59,516 bases of DNA, from positions 1 through 59,516 of the forward strand of contig JAKAKR010000015.1 of the NCBI GenBank assembly GCA_021813435.1. The letters are read 5' to 3'. Position 1 is the stretch's first letter, and each line of letters starts with the position of its first letter. Source of the DNA: Nanobdellota archaeon. GTDB lineage: Archaea; Nanobdellota; Nanobdellia; Woesearchaeales; UBA9642. Positions 12,875-39,987 of the stretch are shown here, one piece after another. The notes under the pieces were generated by a model. The model ran no database searches. It worked only from the letters and a program-made list of their open reading frames with translations, and was not told the DNA's origin. Position numbers and translations under genes: made by a program.

Positions 12875-14842
12875 ATGAAAGTACTCAAGATCACATTCAA
12901 GAACTTAAAGATGCTCCTGCGGTCAAAGACATCAATACTTGTCGTCATCTTCGGCCCGCTCCTCATCATGCTCCTGGTCGGATTTGCATTCAATAACCCT
13001 TCGGCATCAAAACTGAATATCGGGTATGTCGCGCCAGAACAGACCAATCTCACGATATCATTCGTGAATGCGCTTGAGTCAAATCCTAATTTCATCGTCG
13101 CTCCTTATCCCAGCGAGGAATCCTGCAATGAGATGATCGCGCAGGGCAAGATGCATGTCTGCATCATATTCCCCAAGGATTTCAATCTCCAGGATAACAA
13201 GACGAACGAGATCGTATTCTATGTCGATCAATCACGCGCAAATTTCGTATATGCAGTCATTGAGACTGTCTCTTCAAAGATTGATTTCACCACAAACCAG
13301 CTCAGCTACCAATTAACAGATGATCTTATCGGAGTCATTGGAAGTGCAAAGCAGCTCAATAACGACAACTTGCTCAAGATTATCAAGCTCAAGGCCACAA
13401 CTGACGATCTGACTGCGACAATGACGACCATGCAGAATAATCTGAACAGTCTTGACCTCAACAAATCAAGTGTGAGCAGCGGAAGCATCAATAATAATCT
13501 CAATCAACTCCAGGATGACATCATCAAGCTGCGCGATCAGGGTAATGCCGTCGTAAAACTTGCATCGGACTTCAATACCAATGTCGTAACCGGTGTTAAT
13601 AATGCAACACTCCAGGCAAACTTTGTCACCAATCTTGATAATTCCAGCGCTGCCATAAAGACGCAGGGCAATACCACGATTAGTGATCTTCAGGACATGA
13701 ATGATGCAATCGGGGCAATGCTTAGCGATGTTGACAAGATGAATAAGCGCCTGGACATGGTTCAGACCACGACCACTGACGCTGCAACAAAGATTGCTGC
13801 AATGAAGGTCAGCCTTGCTGAAGTCAAGACAAACCTCGAAAGCATCAAGAGCGGTACAGAATCCCTCAACGCACAGATCAATGCGCTAAGGATTACCTCT
13901 GCATCAAGCATTGTCAATCCGGTCAAGACCACCATCAAGCCTGTCAGCGCAAAAACAAGCAACCTCAACTTCATCTTCCCCTATCTGCTCGTTCTCATCA
14001 TTGTCTTTATCAGCATCATGCTCTCAAGCAATATCATTATCATGGAAAAGACTTCCCGCGCATATTTCAGGAATTTCACCACACCCACCAGCGATCTCAC
14101 ATTCATCATCTCAGTATTCTTGACCAGCTTTGTCGTCGTCATCCTCCAATTGATCCTGATCCTTGCCCTTGCCTATTATTTCCTCAATACCACACTCTCT
14201 GCTAACCTTGTCTATACCTCAATTCTCATCTTTATCTCGATTGCACTCTTCACCCTCATCGGCATGATCATCGGATATTTCTTCAAGAGCCAGGAAGCCG
14301 TGACCATGGCTGCAATATCAGTCGGTAGCGTGCTCCTGTTCCTCTCCAATCTTGTCCTCCCGCTCGAAAACATGTCCACATACCTGCAGGAAGTCGCGCA
14401 TTATAACCCCTATGTGATCGCTTCAGAGGCATTAAAGAAGGTCACGATCTTCGGCGCGCAATGGACTGAACTCCAGAATGACCTTGCATTCCTTGCCTTC
14501 TATATTATCATCGGCATTATCCTTGTCATTGCAGTCCAGAAGATGAGCAAGATCCAGTATATCAGCAAGAAGCCTACTGCAAAACAATTGCTCAAAAAAG
14601 AGGATTTCATCGACAAATATCTCAAGCTCAACTCCGGCGTTCTGGTCCGCAACGAGAAGGAACTCCTCGAGGAATTAAAGAAGATGAGTGATGTCTCATT
14701 CAATGAGTATGTCGCCAAGGACAAGAATGATTTCGAATCCTGGCTCCTGCGCAACAAGAATGACAAACTTGCAAAAGAAGTCGGCAAATGCAAGACGCGC
14801 GAAGAGACCATAAAGATTCTTGAAAAGAAGATCAAGAAATAA
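12875..14842 (+). CDS. ABC-2 type permease with long ectodomain and DUF5752-like tail
   Basis: A 655-residue permease of the ABC-2/YhgE type. One membrane helix near residues 20-38 is followed by a large outside domain (about 40-365) whose second half is coiled-coil-like with Asn/Thr/Leu heptads. Five or six membrane helices follow (about 370-565). The cytoplasmic tail (585-655) has VLVRNEKELLEELKKM and KNDFESWL, and matches the domain at the N-terminus of the acetate kinase in this window; I know that domain as DUF5752 from memory. It pairs with the ATPase 4 bp upstream. Such a tail on a permease is unusual. Confidence 0.85.
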   Translation: MKVLKITFKNLKMLLRSKTSILVVIFGPLLIMLLVGFAFNNPSASKLNIGYVAPEQTNLTISFVNALESNPNFIVAPYPSEESCNEMIAQGKMHVCIIFPKDFNLQDNKTNEIVFYVDQSRANFVYAVIETVSSKIDFTTNQLSYQLTDDLIGVIGSAKQLNNDNLLKIIKLKATTDDLTATMTTMQNNLNSLDLNKSSVSSGSINNNLNQLQDDIIKLRDQGNAVVKLASDFNTNVVTGVNNATLQANFVTNLDNSSAAIKTQGNTTISDLQDMNDAIGAMLSDVDKMNKRLDMVQTTTTDAATKIAAMKVSLAEVKTNLESIKSGTESLNAQINALRITSASSIVNPVKTTIKPVSAKTSNLNFIFPYLLVLIIVFISIMLSSNIIIMEKTSRAYFRNFTTPTSDLTFIISVFLTSFVVVILQLILILALAYYFLNTTLSANLVYTSILIFISIALFTLIGMIIGYFFKSQEAVTMAAISVGSVLLFLSNLVLPLENMSTYLQEVAHYNPYVIASEALKKVTIFGAQWTELQNDLAFLAFYIIIGIILVIAVQKMSKIQYISKKPTAKQLLKKEDFIDKYLKLNSGVLVRNEKELLEELKKMSDVSFNEYVAKDKNDFESWLLRNKNDKLAKEVGKCKTREETIKILEKKIKK

Positions 14843-32912: not shown

Positions 32913-33476
32913 ATGGATGGATTCTACGAATTAGCGTTCATTGGAAGAGGCGGGCAGGGCGGAAAAACCGCTGCAGAGCTTGTCGCAAAGATTGCACTCA
33001 ACAATGGAAAGTTCGTCCAATCATTCCCGGATTACGGACCAGAGCGCAAGGGCGCGCCAGTCCGCGCATTCACCCGAATCTCTGATCAGGAGATCAGGGG
33101 ATGCTCTTCAGAATCAAATCCTAATGTGATTGTCATCATCGACCAGGCGCTTTCCGGACTCAATAACTCATTCTTTACAACGCACGATGATACTATTGTC
33201 ATTGTAAACACCGGCGAGACCGCGGACGCGCTGCAGAAACAATACCATCTCAAAGGCAGGATCCATGTGGTCAATGCGACCACTATCGCGCTGGAAACAG
33301 TCAAGGTCAATATCACAAACAGCGCAATGCTTGGAGCACTCGCAAAAATCACCGGGTTATTCACACTTGAAGAGATCAAGGAGGAATTCCGCAAGGAATT
33401 CGATCGCAAATTATCCGCAGAGGGACTCCAGAATAATTATCGCGCAATCGAGCGCGCATATAAAGAAGTTGTATGA
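32913..33476 (+). CDS. porG: 2-oxoacid:ferredoxin oxidoreductase, gamma subunit
   Basis: A 187-residue gamma subunit of pyruvate or related 2-oxoacid:ferredoxin oxidoreductase. It begins ELAFIGRGGQGGKTAAE, the family signature, and has the SFPDYGPERKGAPVRAFTRIS stretch that contacts coenzyme A and the other subunits. With the delta, alpha and beta subunits in this cluster it would oxidise a 2-oxoacid to acyl-CoA, CO2 and reduced ferredoxin. GGTGAGTGT before the ATG acts as ribosome site, and an AACATTTAAATATC box lies about 45 nt upstream. Confidence 0.93.
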   Translation: MDGFYELAFIGRGGQGGKTAAELVAKIALNNGKFVQSFPDYGPERKGAPVRAFTRISDQEIRGCSSESNPNVIVIIDQALSGLNNSFFTTHDDTIVIVNTGETADALQKQYHLKGRIHVVNATTIALETVKVNITNSAMLGALAKITGLFTLEEIKEEFRKEFDRKLSAEGLQNNYRAIERAYKEVV

Positions 33477-33597: not shown

Positions 33598-33918
33598 ATG
33601 ACACTCAAAAAATATACGGAAATCAGTGAAGGCGCCCGCGGCGATGGCGCTTCATCATTGCAATTCAATACTGGCAATTGGCGGGCGATCAGGCCGGATA
33701 TCAACACCAAGAAATGCATCAATTGCATGCTCTGCTACCTCTACTGCCCGGACGATGCAATACTTATCAAGAAAGAGGGCAAGGACGGAAAGCCGGAAAT
33801 CGTCGGGATAGACCTCGAGCATTGCAAGGGTTGTTCGATCTGCTCGAATGTATGCCCCGTCAAATGCATCACCATGGACAAAGAGGAAGATGCATTGAAA
33901 AAGGGATTAAAGGAATGA
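33598..33918 (+). CDS. porD: 2-oxoacid:ferredoxin oxidoreductase, delta (ferredoxin-like) subunit
   Basis: A 106-residue subunit with two [4Fe-4S] binding motifs, CINCMLCYLYCP and CKGCSICSNVCP, as in PorD. It carries electrons from the thiamine-diphosphate site to free ferredoxin. The N-terminal 35 residues contain the family FNTGNWRAIRPDI stretch. It follows porG after a structured gap and lies 16 bp before the phosphatase-like gene, so it is part of the same operon. Confidence 0.93.
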   Translation: MTLKKYTEISEGARGDGASSLQFNTGNWRAIRPDINTKKCINCMLCYLYCPDDAILIKKEGKDGKPEIVGIDLEHCKGCSICSNVCPVKCITMDKEEDALKKGLKE

Positions 33919-33934
33919 ATGGAGTACAGGATAT

Positions 33935-34720
33935 ATGAACGAAGATAAACTGGCACAGGACTTGAAAAAAATCACGCTCAAGGCAGGCAAGGCTGTCATG
34001 TCCCATTATGGAAACGCAAAGATACAGTATTATAAGAAACATGTTACTGATATTGTAACGCAGGCAGATATTGCATCAAATAAGGTCATCACCACATTCA
34101 TCAAGAAAAATTATCCGACGCATGGAATCATTTCAGAAGAGGAAAAGGATTACCAGCGTGATGCAGAATATGTCTGGATCATCGACCCTATTGACGGGAC
34201 ACGGAATTTTTCAAGCAAGTTGCCGCACTTTTCTGTGCTGGTTGCAATCGCAAAGAACAATAAGGTCATTATGGGCGCTATCTGCCAGCCATTTTTCAAA
34301 GAGCTCTATTTTGCCCGGCAGGGAAAAGGCGCATATCTTAACAAGAAGAAGATTCATTGCAGCAGCGCCAAATCAATCGAGCGCAGTATCGGGGTCATTG
34401 ATATCAGTTTCAGGAATGCTGCAACACGGGAAAAGACCAAGAGAATGATACTTGCAGAAGAAAAAACAGGATACTGGGTCACTGAACTTACCTGCATAGG
34501 GTCGAATGCGCTCATTGTCGCTGATGGCCGCAGGGACTGGCTCTGCCAACCCAAAGTCGGCGGAGTCTGGGATCTTGCAGCGCCCTACATTATCCTCAAG
34601 GAATCAGGATGCAAAGTAACAAACTTTCAGGGAAAAGAATGGACGTTAAATGACGGAGATATGATCGCAGCAAACCCGCTGCTCCATAAAAAGATCCTTG
34701 CAATCATGAACAAAAAATGA
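33935..34720 (+). CDS. Inositol monophosphatase / archaeal FBPase-like phosphatase
   Basis: A 261-residue member of the IMPase/FBPase IV family. Metal-binding motifs are complete: IISEEE (Glu68-70), WIIDPIDGT (Asp84, Asp87) and VWDLAAP near 212. Archaeal members hydrolyse inositol-1-phosphate, fructose-1,6-bisphosphate or both. It lies between porD and porA, 16 bp after the former and with its TGA overlapping the porA ATG, so its expression is tied to the oxidoreductase. The metabolic reason is not obvious; linking gluconeogenesis to 2-oxoacid use is an inference. Confidence 0.88.
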   Translation: MNEDKLAQDLKKITLKAGKAVMSHYGNAKIQYYKKHVTDIVTQADIASNKVITTFIKKNYPTHGIISEEEKDYQRDAEYVWIIDPIDGTRNFSSKLPHFSVLVAIAKNNKVIMGAICQPFFKELYFARQGKGAYLNKKKIHCSSAKSIERSIGVIDISFRNAATREKTKRMILAEEKTGYWVTELTCIGSNALIVADGRRDWLCQPKVGGVWDLAAPYIILKESGCKVTNFQGKEWTLNDGDMIAANPLLHKKILAIMNKK

Positions 34721-35916
34721 AACAAATGCCTGCAAAATCAGAAATCAAGGCACTGACCGGTGCAGAAGCGGCTGCTGAAGCTATGAGACAGATCCAGCCC
34801 GACGTTGTACCAGAGTATCCGATTACTCCGCAGACCCAGATCGTCGAGGTCTACAGCCAGTTTGTTGCTGACGGTATTGTTGATTCAGAGATTGTAAGGT
34901 GCGAGTCAGAACATTCAGTGATGAGTGTTGCCATGGGCGCTTCTGTTGCTGGCGCGCGTGTGATGACTGCCACAAGTTCGCAGGGGCTTGCATTCATGTT
35001 TGAGCCCGTATTCATAGCCCCAAGTCTGCGGCTTCCTATTGTCATGAATATTGTCAATCGCGCGCTCTCAGGGCCAATCAATATCCACTGCGATCATTCT
35101 GACGGCATGGCAATACGCGATTCCGGATGGATCCAGCTGTATTCTGAGAATGCGCAGGAAGCATATGAGCATACGATCATGGCTGTACGCATCGCCGAGC
35201 ATCCGGATGTCCAATTGCCGGTTGCGATCAATCAGGATGGGTTCATCACCAGCCATGCACTCGTCAATGTTGAAATCATTGATGATAAGATCGTCAAGGA
35301 TTTTGTGGGCGTCCGCAAGCCTGCCTTCAGCCTGCTTGACGCAGAAAAACCATTATCTGTCGGCATGCTGGATTTCTATGATTATTTTTTCGAGCACAAG
35401 AAACAGACGTTTGATGCCATGGAGCGATCCCGCAGGATCATCAGGGAAGTATTTGATGCATTTGCAAAGATCACCGGAAAAAAATATGATATGGCCGAAA
35501 AATACCGGTGCGATGACGCAGAGCATATCATTGTCGCAATGTCAAGCGCCTGCGGAATCATCAAGGATGTTGTCGACGAATTGCGCGGCCAGGGCAAAAA
35601 AGTCGGTCTGCTCCGCATCAGGGTCTTTAGGCCATTTCCTGAAGTAGAAGTCGCGCAGGCACTGCGCAAGGCAAAAGCAGTCATCATCCTTGAACGCGCA
35701 TCCGGCTTTGGCAGCTACAGCCCAATCTACAATGAGACAACAGCCGCACTCTATCATTATCCGCAGAAACCCAAGATGGTCAATTATGTCTTTGGCCTTG
35801 GCGGAAGGAATTTTGGAAAATCAGACGCACGCAAACTCTTCGAAGAACTCGAAAAGATCGAGGGCGAATTCCTCGATGAAAAAAATAAACTACGGTACCT
35901 CGGAGTACGAGAATAG
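34717..35916 (+). CDS. porA: 2-oxoacid:ferredoxin oxidoreductase, alpha subunit
   Basis: A 399-residue alpha subunit. It has the family start LTGAEAAAEAMRQIQPDVVPEYPITPQT split over the first 45 residues, ESEHSVMSVAMGASVAGARV, the TSSQGLAFMFEP region and the PINIHCDHSD loop near the substrate. The second half carries the VGLLRIRVFRPFPEVEV fold. It starts inside the stop codon of the phosphatase gene (ATGA). Substrate choice between pyruvate and other 2-oxoacids cannot be told from the sequence with certainty. Confidence 0.94.
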   Translation: MKQMPAKSEIKALTGAEAAAEAMRQIQPDVVPEYPITPQTQIVEVYSQFVADGIVDSEIVRCESEHSVMSVAMGASVAGARVMTATSSQGLAFMFEPVFIAPSLRLPIVMNIVNRALSGPINIHCDHSDGMAIRDSGWIQLYSENAQEAYEHTIMAVRIAEHPDVQLPVAINQDGFITSHALVNVEIIDDKIVKDFVGVRKPAFSLLDAEKPLSVGMLDFYDYFFEHKKQTFDAMERSRRIIREVFDAFAKITGKKYDMAEKYRCDDAEHIIVAMSSACGIIKDVVDELRGQGKKVGLLRIRVFRPFPEVEVAQALRKAKAVIILERASGFGSYSPIYNETTAALYHYPQKPKMVNYVFGLGGRNFGKSDARKLFEELEKIEGEFLDEKNKLRYLGVRE

Positions 35917-36898: not shown

Positions 36899-36958
36899 GA
36901 GTGCTAACATTCGAAGAATGTTACACTCGCTTTTACTCAATTTTTTTGTAAAAAATTG
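36899..36958. repeat. Two-hairpin element, copy 1 (overlaps porB start)
   Basis: Hairpin 1 is GAGTG-c-TAACATTC, loop gaa, GAATGTTA-CACTC, 13 bp with one bulged C. A 9-nt linker follows. Hairpin 2 is CAATTTTTT, loop TGT, AAAAAATTG. A second copy downstream of tRNA-Arg has the same stem layout, the same bulged C, the same 9-nt linker and the same TGT loop, but different stem letters that keep pairing. The final TTG of hairpin 2 is the apparent porB start codon. Confidence 0.6.
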
Positions 36959-37897
36959 GTAGACATCAAGGAATTTGCAAAACGTGAAGTGAAGCTTGTC
37001 GGCGGGCACCGGCTCTGTGCAGGCTGTCCTGCGCCGACCATTGCAAAGCTTGCAATGATGGCAAGCGACAAGCCAGTGATTGCCTCAAACGCCACCGGAT
37101 GCCTCGAGGTATCGACAACAATCTATCCGTATACCGCATGGAAGACTCCCTGGATCCATACCGCCTTCGAGAATACTGCAGCAAACATTTCCGGGGTCGA
37201 GGCTGCATTCCATGCATTGCAACGCAAAGGACTCATTGAACAATCAAAGGGTTTCAGGTTCATGGCAATCGGCGGTGACGGCGGAACGTATGATATCGGA
37301 CTCCAATCGCTTTCCGGCGCAATAGAGCGCGGGCATAAATTCGTCTATGTCTGCTATGACAATGAAGCATACAGCAATACCGGCATCCAGCGCAGTTCAG
37401 CAACACCATTATTCGCCAATACCACCACTGACCCGACAGGGCATGTCCGCAAGGGAAAGCAGGAATTGCGCAAAAATTTCACTGAGATCATGGTCGCGCA
37501 TAACATGAAATATGTCGCGCAGGCATCACTGTCCAATATCCAGGATTTTATCATGAAGATGGAAAAGGCCTTCAAGTATACGGATGAGACTGCGACATTC
37601 GTGAATGTCGTAAGTCCCTGCGTTCCGGGATGGGGCATCAGGGATGGCGATGCGGTCATGATGTCAAAACTTGCTGTCGATACCTGCTTCTGGCCGCTCT
37701 ATGAAGTCGAGGATGGTATCTACAAACTCAATTATAATCCTGAGGCGACCGGGCAGAAAAAACCGATCATTGAATTCTTGAAGAACCAGGGCAGGTTCAA
37801 GGAACTGCTCAAGCCAGAAAATAGTGAACTCATCGCGCGATTCCAGCAGGATGTCGATGAGCGTTGGGAGAAATTGAAGAAGAAGTGCGGCGTATAG
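36956..37897 (+). CDS. porB: 2-oxoacid:ferredoxin oxidoreductase, beta (TPP-binding) subunit
   Basis: A 313-residue beta subunit holding thiamine diphosphate and one [4Fe-4S] cluster. HRLCAGCPAP near residue 20 gives two cluster Cys; the TPP motif is GDGGTYDIGLQSL followed by CYDNEAYSNTG. The only start that keeps the family N-terminus (KEFAKREVKLVGGHRLCAGC) is TTG, which is the last codon-sized piece of the two-hairpin element. No Shine-Dalgarno is visible outside the hairpin. The subunit normally follows porA, but here two unrelated genes and the element lie between. Confidence 0.92.
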   Translation: MVDIKEFAKREVKLVGGHRLCAGCPAPTIAKLAMMASDKPVIASNATGCLEVSTTIYPYTAWKTPWIHTAFENTAANISGVEAAFHALQRKGLIEQSKGFRFMAIGGDGGTYDIGLQSLSGAIERGHKFVYVCYDNEAYSNTGIQRSSATPLFANTTTDPTGHVRKGKQELRKNFTEIMVAHNMKYVAQASLSNIQDFIMKMEKAFKYTDETATFVNVVSPCVPGWGIRDGDAVMMSKLAVDTCFWPLYEVEDGIYKLNYNPEATGQKKPIIEFLKNQGRFKELLKPENSELIARFQQDVDERWEKLKKKCGV

Positions 37898-38010: not shown

Positions 38011-38427
38011 ATGAGCGACTCATTTTACGAATATCTCAAGATCCGCATCAATGAATCAGGCGACGAAGTCGACAAATGCGTGACGTATCTTCCCGATATC
38101 TTCAAGACACTCTCCGGTCTTCTTGATCACGAAACACTCCTGCAGGAGGATCGCCTGCGGATCAATGCGGCGCTTGCCTACATTGTGGTTCCCAACGACG
38201 TCATCCCTGAAGAAGTGTATGGCACCTGGGGGTATTTTGACGATCTCTTTGTCGGTGCAAGAGTCCTCAAAGAGATGCACCAGAAATATCCTGATGCAGT
38301 CCTGAAGCGATGGGAAGTTGGCGAGGATTTTGTGCAGACCCTGGACTTCTGTCTCTTGCAGGCAACGCATTTTCTCGAAGAAAAAGACATGACCGACAAG
38401 GTTCTTGACTTTGCAGGACTACGATAA
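38011..38427 (+). CDS. DUF1232/YkvA-like small protein
   Basis: A 138-residue protein with the DUF1232-type core INAALAYIVVPNDVIPEEVY, then GYFDDLFVGARVL, in which family members read as ALaYlisPiDliPd...lGylDDa. The family is found next to many membrane and stress genes but has no settled function. The remaining parts are helical and charged, with a Cys-containing C-terminal stretch. A TTTATAAAGATT TATA box lies about 60 nt before the ATG, and a GCAGGTTTCC stretch may serve as ribosome site. Confidence 0.65.
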   Translation: MSDSFYEYLKIRINESGDEVDKCVTYLPDIFKTLSGLLDHETLLQEDRLRINAALAYIVVPNDVIPEEVYGTWGYFDDLFVGARVLKEMHQKYPDAVLKRWEVGEDFVQTLDFCLLQATHFLEEKDMTDKVLDFAGLR

Positions 38428-38454: not shown

Positions 38455-39879
38455 TTACAGTTTCAGCAATTTCTTGACTTCAGTTGCGATCTGGATCTCT
38501 TCGTTGGTCGCAACGACGAATGCTTCGATCTTTGAATCCTTGCGTGTGATGATGAATTCACTTGCAGCATTCTTCTTTTCATCAAGCTTCAAACCCAGGT
38601 ATACAAAATTCTCGAGGATCTTTTTGCGGATATAGAATGCGTTCTCGCCGATCCCGGCCGTAAAGACAATCCCGTCAACGCCATTCAATTCAGCAATGTA
38701 TGCGCCGATGAAATGGACTGCCCGATCTGCAAAGATGTCCATGGCAAGCTTTATCTTCGGATCCTTCTCATTCCGATGCAGATCGCGCATATCTGAATAC
38801 CCGCAGATGCCGAGGAGCCCTGAGCGCTTGTTGATCATCCGCCCGAAATCTTCATAGTCCATCTTGATGAGCTGCGAGAGGTGCAATCCGATCGCCGGAT
38901 CAAGGCTTCCGGATCGCGTGCCCATGACCAGTCCGTCTGCAGGAGTAAAACCCATGGTCGTATTGAATGATTTCCAATCCTTAATTGCAGTGATGGATGA
39001 GCCGTTCCCGAGATGGCAGATAATGATGTTAGCCTTTTTCTTTTTCTTGAGCGCATAATACTCTTTCATGAGCCCTGTGATGTATTTGTGGCTTGAGCCG
39101 TGAAAACCGTACTTTCGGATCTTGTAATTCTCATAATATTCATAAGGCAGTCCATAGAGGTATTTTTCCTTTTGGATGGTTGCATGGAATGCAGTGTCAA
39201 AGACTGCGACCTGCGGGGCAGGGATGACTTTTTGCGCAGCAATGATGCAGGAAACATTTGCAGGATTATGGAGCGGTGCAAGACTAGAGAGCTCCTTTAG
39301 TTTTTCGAGCACTGTTGCATCAATACGGATTGCATCCTTATATTCCTCGCCGCCATGGACTACGCGATGCCCGACTGCGCGGATCTCACTGATATCGCCG
39401 ATGATATCATCCTCAAGCAGTGTCTGGATAAGCAATTGCATCGCCTCCTCATGGTTCTTGACAACGACATTCTTAGTGCGCTCTTCGCCATTGTCATAGA
39501 TCTTAAGCGTGCATCGGTCAAGGTTGATTGCATCAATGATTCCTTTGATGAGGATGTCGCGAGTAGTCAATTCGAGGAGCTGGAATTTGAGTGAGGAGCT
39601 TCCGGCGTTGATGACCAGGATCTTGAGTTCAGAGAGGAACTGTTTGATTGCAGCGATGATGAGCCGACGCTCTTTATACTGATAAGAGGATATTTTGTCT
39701 GCAAGTTTTTTTGCCTTAAAGACATACCGGATCCAATTTGAAAAATCATTCTTCTGGTCATTCACATGATACGTGAATGTCTTATGGTCCATATCCTTGA
39801 GAAATAGGGTGAGCTCTTCAAGACTCTTGATGATTCTCCCATCGTTAAGAACAAAATAATGTTCTGGATTAATATCCAT
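38455..39879 (-). CDS. ackA: Acetate kinase fused to N-terminal DUF5752-like domain
   Basis: A 474-residue protein. Residues 84-474 are a complete acetate kinase (acetyl phosphate + ADP to acetate + ATP): KILVINAGSSSLKFQ at the start, GHRVVHGG, the catalytic region with VFDTAFHATI, NYKIRKYGFHGSSHKY-type ATP site split by a loop, and GTRSGSLDP. Residues 1-83 form an extra domain (EHYFVLNDGRIIKSLEEL, KNDFSNWIRYVF) that I know as DUF5752 from memory; a related tail ends the ABC permease near 14.8 kb. GGGGTGTAGG before the ATG at 39879 sets the start. No phosphotransacetylase is nearby. Confidence 0.92.
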   Translation of the reverse strand: MDINPEHYFVLNDGRIIKSLEELTLFLKDMDHKTFTYHVNDQKNDFSNWIRYVFKAKKLADKISSYQYKERRLIIAAIKQFLSELKILVINAGSSSLKFQLLELTTRDILIKGIIDAINLDRCTLKIYDNGEERTKNVVVKNHEEAMQLLIQTLLEDDIIGDISEIRAVGHRVVHGGEEYKDAIRIDATVLEKLKELSSLAPLHNPANVSCIIAAQKVIPAPQVAVFDTAFHATIQKEKYLYGLPYEYYENYKIRKYGFHGSSHKYITGLMKEYYALKKKKKANIIICHLGNGSSITAIKDWKSFNTTMGFTPADGLVMGTRSGSLDPAIGLHLSQLIKMDYEDFGRMINKRSGLLGICGYSDMRDLHRNEKDPKIKLAMDIFADRAVHFIGAYIAELNGVDGIVFTAGIGENAFYIRKKILENFVYLGLKLDEKKNAASEFIITRKDSKIEAFVVATNEEIQIATEVKKLLKL

Positions 39880-39987
39880 CCTACACCCCTTTATTATCAT
39901 AGGGTACGACGAGTTTTTAAATATTGCGCATTTAACGCGCGTTCAATAACATTTTTAAACATCACGCGCTGATAATCATCGCGTAAC

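Follow-up and report, generated by a model that had tools for sequence, protein, structure and literature searches.

A DUF5752-type domain fused to acetate kinase in one genus of Woesearchaeota, and its possible role as a docking module

Introduction

The energy metabolism of host-dependent DPANN archaea is sparse, and the Woesearchaeota of the genus considered here are tiny, uncultured archaea. In one of them, a Nanobdellota archaeon (assembly GCA_021813435.1; 1.41 Mb in 16 contigs, 96% complete), the only acetate kinase (AckA) of the genome carries an additional domain at its N-terminus that resembles the family DUF5752. The gene lies on contig JAKAKR010000015.1, all 59,516 nucleotides of which were analysed and are called the window throughout. 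Why an acetate kinase should carry such a domain is the question that this locus raises. If the domain docks AckA, it would provide a first handle on the placement of enzymes in these small cells, and a testable function would be offered for a domain family that is present in about four-fifths of the sampled genomes of the order. The novelty is in the architecture and in the breadth of the domain; the enzyme itself is not new.

The fused gene

The gene occupies positions 38455..39879 of the minus strand and encodes 474 amino acids, and each of the four genus genomes has a full-length homolog. A previous sequence-only reading had placed the open reading frame correctly, including its strand, and the motifs that it had listed for the N-terminal domain (EHYFVL, IKSLEEL, and KNDFSNWI) are all found in the protein. 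Residues 1-84 (39628..39879, minus strand) form the DUF5752-type domain, as recognized by a match to PF19027, by a profile built from 65 copies, and by AlphaFold2, while residues 85-474 (38458..39627, minus strand) form the catalytic part, as recognized by PF00871, by the structures 2iir and 1tuu, and by invariant motif residues. The best explanation is one polypeptide in which a linker of two residues connects a compact five-helix DUF5752-type domain to an acetate kinase whose motifs are intact.

The ATG at 39879 is preceded by a Shine-Dalgarno-like GGGGTG (39884..39889, minus strand), and the three relatives have GAGGGTG or GAGGTG at the equivalent position, giving a site of this kind upstream of the domain start in each of the four genomes. 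An alternative ATG at 39900 is seven codons upstream of the start of the 474-residue protein. The start-type codons in frame within the window gene are at residues 1, 30, 39, and then 104; therefore the AckA part does not have its own start near residue 84, and initiation there, which had been raised earlier as a challenge to the fusion, is ruled out for this gene by the absence of a start codon as well as being at odds with the Shine-Dalgarno-like site ahead of the domain. A separate start for AckA, or a frame created by an assembly artefact, is scarcely credible and already contradicted: TTG or GTG codons occur close to the junction in the relatives, but they are not conserved and have no counterpart in the window gene, and the fusion recurs in four genomes, of which three correspond to named MAG records.

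Acetate kinase and the route to acetate

Residues 86-465 match Acetate_kinase (PF00871) with an E-value of 5e-134 and 447 bits against a cut-off of 22. Positions 1-391 of the 392 in the profile are covered and the motif residues are intact, in agreement with the earlier description of the enzyme as complete. The protein also matches TIGR00016 (463.7 bits, cut-off 293.4), and passes the acetate/propionate family model but not the butyrate kinase models. The structures 2iir and 1tuu align with the catalytic part from end to end (E about 1e-103 or better), and all PDB matches start at query residue 81 or beyond. Residues N91, S94, R172, H204, D228, H260, H289, R322, and E460, which we take to be active-site residues from what is known of the family, are invariant in the four fused proteins and 28 AckA sequences. 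All four fused proteins retain the motif residues of NxGSSS, HRVVHGG, LHN, FDTxFH, GFHG, CHLGNG, GTRxG, and TNEE, the lone variant being ANEE in one protein. Compared to known acetate kinases (PF00871, TIGR00016; PDB 1tuu/1tuy and 2iir), the catalytic part is full-length with conserved motif residues, but the fused protein has an additional N-terminal domain of 84 residues.

The genes for pyruvate:ferredoxin oxidoreductase (POR) adjoin the fused ackA in this genome and in two others of the set (G002 and G003). In the window they are on the plus strand: porC/G for the gamma subunit (32913..33476; TIGR02175, PF01558), porD for the delta subunit, a ferredoxin (33598..33918; TIGR02179), porA for the alpha subunit (34717..35916; PF01855, E 2e-70, with PorA_Arch as the best NCBIfam match, below its cut-off), and porB for the beta subunit (36956..37897; NCBIfam PorB, E 2.5e-105 but below its cut-off, and PF02775). 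The convergent neighbour of ackA (38011..38427, plus strand) matches DUF1232 (PF06803, E 8e-8) and is beside the fused gene in all four genomes.

The sequence-only reading had found no phosphotransacetylase, which is correct for the window but not for the genome: a single pta is on contig C7 (97633-98598, E 7.5e-100). A search of the four genomes of the genus for the ATP-grasp domain of ADP-forming acetyl-CoA synthetase gave no match, while this domain is above its cut-off in 7 of 25 relatives searched. The earlier contrast with most archaea, which were said to make acetate with this synthetase, thus holds in the one respect that the synthetase has no match in these four genomes. Pta-AckA is therefore likely to be the acetate route, and given that POR is encoded next to ackA and Pta on another contig, the likely route is from pyruvate to acetate and ATP, in which POR would form acetyl-CoA, Pta would convert it to acetyl phosphate, and AckA would release acetate with formation of ATP. 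AckA is probably an important step of substrate-level ATP formation in the genus.

Acetate kinase had also been considered uncommon, a view that is weak for this lineage: AckA is found at an E-value of 1e-40 or better in 96 of 353 genomes of the order, usually beside pta. Pta-AckA has been reported from many subgroups of Woesearchaeota (PMC8421398), and the enzyme itself is therefore ordinary here. The pta-ackA pair of other Woesearchaeota has the same reaction, but the enzymes of these relatives do not have the domain and mostly have an adjacent pta (30 of the 41 AckA rows in the tree, and none of the fused rows), while the pta of this genus is located away from ackA, on a separate contig. 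Loss in this genus of the adjacency seen in relatives is the best explanation.

The DUF5752-type domain

The match to DUF5752 (PF19027) runs from residue 8 to residue 65 and corresponds to the second repeat of the family (positions 125-188 of 208). On its own the domain reaches 37.2 bits (E 2.6e-9), above the gathering cut-off of 23; when the entire protein is scanned, it reaches 21.9 bits, slightly below the cut-off. The proposed link to DUF5752 is thus present, in an intact fusion. The full length of PF19027 (208 positions in two repeats) is not reached, and the AckA domain corresponds to a single repeat of the family. Against the profile built from 65 copies it scores 106 bits. The alignment of those 65 sequences has the consensus PxxYFxLxxGxxxKSLxELxxxLxxxDDxxFxxHVNxxKNDFANWIxxV, with an invariant W49, and the AckA copies retain the residues conserved across the family (F9, G14, L23, F35, H38, V39, N44, D45, F46, W49, and L59).

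AlphaFold2 predicts the domain alone to be compact, with five helices (pLDDT 94.8, pTM 0.84). In the full-length model the AckA part is good and the domain is weak (pLDDT blocks 41-83), the lower confidence being due to the fact that only four sequences cover the domain; domain-only sequences were left out of this model, since MAFFT scattered them across the C-terminus of AckA. The last helix of the domain spans residues 68-83 in this model and the first strand of AckA spans 86-92.

The sole solved relative, by profile and tentatively by fold, is OrfY from Thermoproteus tenax (PDB 4cso), which its depositors called a "transcription factor". The profile matches 4cso with an E-value of 2.6e-7, and Foldseek gives a probability of 0.97-0.98 and a TM-score of 0.60-0.63, with an E-value of 0.12 that is above the usual threshold. 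OrfY is a stand-alone protein with two profile matches in 4cso_A, while the AckA copy is a single repeat on an enzyme. Literature on OrfY or on DUF5752, the latter searched under its name, was not found in the library of papers searched.

Distribution and origin of the fusion

In 4 of the 96 AckA-bearing genomes of the order the AckA match extends across the domain within a single open frame, and these are all four genomes of the genus (g1, Woesearchaeota); the fusion was found in none of the remaining 92. Relatives with the fusion are the Candidatus Woesearchaeota MAGs UBA12459 and KatS3mg002, and archaeon DeMMO2_15. In a sample of 371 genomes from the phylum, about 77 have AckA and only this genus has the fusion. 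When 84,980 species were scanned with a sequence pattern, a method that reaches close relatives only, the fusion was found in these three relatives and nowhere else. Longer AckA frames in two other genomes (G110 and G248) have no domain match. The survey of architectures suggested earlier thus places fused ackA in a single genus of the order, with the domain also on many other partners.

In the AckA trees the four fused enzymes form one clade (support 100/100), which groups with 18 woesearchaeal enzymes (support 82/94) in the tree with six bacterial sequences. A bacterial origin of the enzyme was considered, as a tree with one bacterium had paired the fused clade with a sequence from Bacilli (100/97); this pairing was lost after five more bacterial sequences were added, and therefore no transfer is claimed. 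The four AckA domains also form one clade in the domain tree (support 98), although the donor of the domain is not named because the domain phylogeny has too few columns (81). Pairs of the four fused proteins share 60-67% identity over the domain and 59-67% over the AckA part, and 48% and 46% of the columns, respectively, are invariant. At the level of sequence, the fusion is real, has a single origin within the genus, and has a domain as conserved as the enzyme. The conserved residues of the domain may be structural (helix caps and core) rather than an interface.

Other proteins with the domain

The host genome has ten copies of the domain. In a sample of 61 genomes from the order, 48 have at least one, and the largest number is 14. 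The set gathered consists of 131 proteins with 141 domains; this sample was partly picked by frame length, and partners were assigned by profile match or clear sequence features, most of them having no annotated function. Among the partners are ABC-2 permeases, HerA-like ATPases that contain TPRs, KaiC-like and MoxR ATPases, FlaC-like coiled coils, large surface proteins whose tail is cytosolic, and some proteins resembling signal-peptidase relatives by eye but lacking a Pfam match. Three further metabolic partners are found once each: the E2 subunit of pyruvate dehydrogenase (PDH), a PfkB-family kinase, and a ferredoxin-like protein. The E2 (L187:942-2447, minus strand, genome G095), a dihydrolipoyl acyltransferase of the 2-oxoacid dehydrogenase type, has the domain between its lipoyl and E3-binding domains, and the PfkB-family sugar kinase (L185:424-1695, plus strand, genome G025) has it at the C-terminus. 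The position of the domain is therefore variable, being N-terminal, C-terminal, or internal. Its carriers are usually either cytosolic proteins or membrane proteins, in which it is mostly at the end predicted by hydropathy to be cytosolic; by the same prediction it is C-terminal in six of seven polytopic proteins and N-terminal in tail-anchored ones. One ABC-2 permease is in the window (12875..14842, plus strand; PF12698, E 2e-33), with the domain on its C-terminal tail at about residues 580-655 (14612-14839, 78 bits). Similar permeases are found at four other loci (L063, L115, L124, and L173), and their domain copies group together (support 92).

Stand-alone copies are found in a conserved cluster with a glycosyltransferase, a GH57 protein, a small soluble DUF5752 protein, a DUF5752 protein with a C-terminal membrane anchor, and a GT3 glycogen synthase, to which several genomes add a GalT-like protein, a nucleotidyltransferase, and a debranching enzyme. 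By hand count, a DUF5752 gene adjoins one or more of the glucan genes in about 21 distinct genomes, some of which have one DUF5752 gene only. Many of the small soluble proteins have a lysine-rich tail, and many copies from the glycogen operon have a predicted tail anchor. In the host genome, the operon with two DUF5752 genes is at L058:6529-17101 (contig C7, about 172.5-183.1 kb); L068, L069, L072, and L076 have the same operon type, with one DUF5752 protein soluble with a basic tail and the other tail-anchored. The stand-alone proteins of these five loci have the same domain, with about 40-48% identity to the AckA copy at best, but they have a lysine-rich tail or a C-terminal membrane anchor where the AckA copy has the enzyme.

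Role of the domain on acetate kinase

The presence of the domain on many unrelated proteins and in the glycogen cluster suggests that AckA is anchored to a shared cell structure. A docking or localisation module is favoured, with moderate confidence, because the partners do not share a chemistry, the position of the domain is variable, and the same residues are conserved; the earlier proposal that the domain could localise the kinase agrees, by inference, with this spread over unrelated partners. As a protein-interaction module, the domain would tether AckA to a membrane- or glycogen-associated scaffold, through contact with other DUF5752 domains or through a common ligand. The scaffold might be built by the stand-alone pair of the glycogen operon, one soluble and one tail-anchored; both scaffold and hub are drawn from gene content. 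A broader joint reading, which is speculative and rather unlikely, is a docking code of DUF5752-type domains across the order, centred on the tail-anchored protein of the glycogen operon. Under such a code, the module would gather transporters, ATPases, and surface proteins on a membrane- or glycogen-bound metabolic scaffold inside these very small cells, and AckA, PDH E2, a PfkB kinase, and a ferredoxin would have been recruited in separate lineages.

The main rival to docking is an allosteric or sensory domain, in which binding of a metabolite would alter AckA activity through the short junction; the ligand could be a sugar, sugar phosphate, or nucleotide that reports the status of the carbon store. 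This explanation, which corresponds to the regulatory role also proposed earlier, is less likely but tenable. The last helix of the domain is separated from the first strand of AckA by two residues. This junction is short and probably rigid, which suits allostery, as do the stand-alone copies in the glycogen operon, the name given to OrfY, and the E2 and PfkB partners, which are plausible points of regulation. However, the domain is found at variable positions on proteins without a common chemistry, and Pfam, NCBIfam, and the PDB give no family-level connection between it and any known ligand-binding domain. The deposition of OrfY as a transcription factor, together with the lysine-rich tails, makes nucleic-acid binding or ligand sensing possible. 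A passive appendage, acquired by chance and with helices that aid the folding, solubility, or oligomerisation of AckA without any partner, is improbable: limitation of the fusion to one genus with one origin is consistent with it, but the domain is conserved equally with the catalytic part, and the family-wide residues are kept at about 60% identity.

Other arrangements of the domain

Some further arrangements were observed. In the host genome, a membrane HerA-like ATPase with TPRs carries a copy of the domain (L060:160-4847, contig C12); the same combination is found in L070, L112, L120, L199, and L200, often followed by another DUF5752 gene, and looks like a conserved machine of unassigned role. 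KaiC-like ATPases in L123, L181, L193, and L198 have one to three copies at the N-terminus. Coiled-coil proteins in L114, L119, and L186 resemble the archaellum accessory protein FlaC by eye and have the domain at the C-terminus; PF05377 is matched by 3 of the 43 other proteins scanned.
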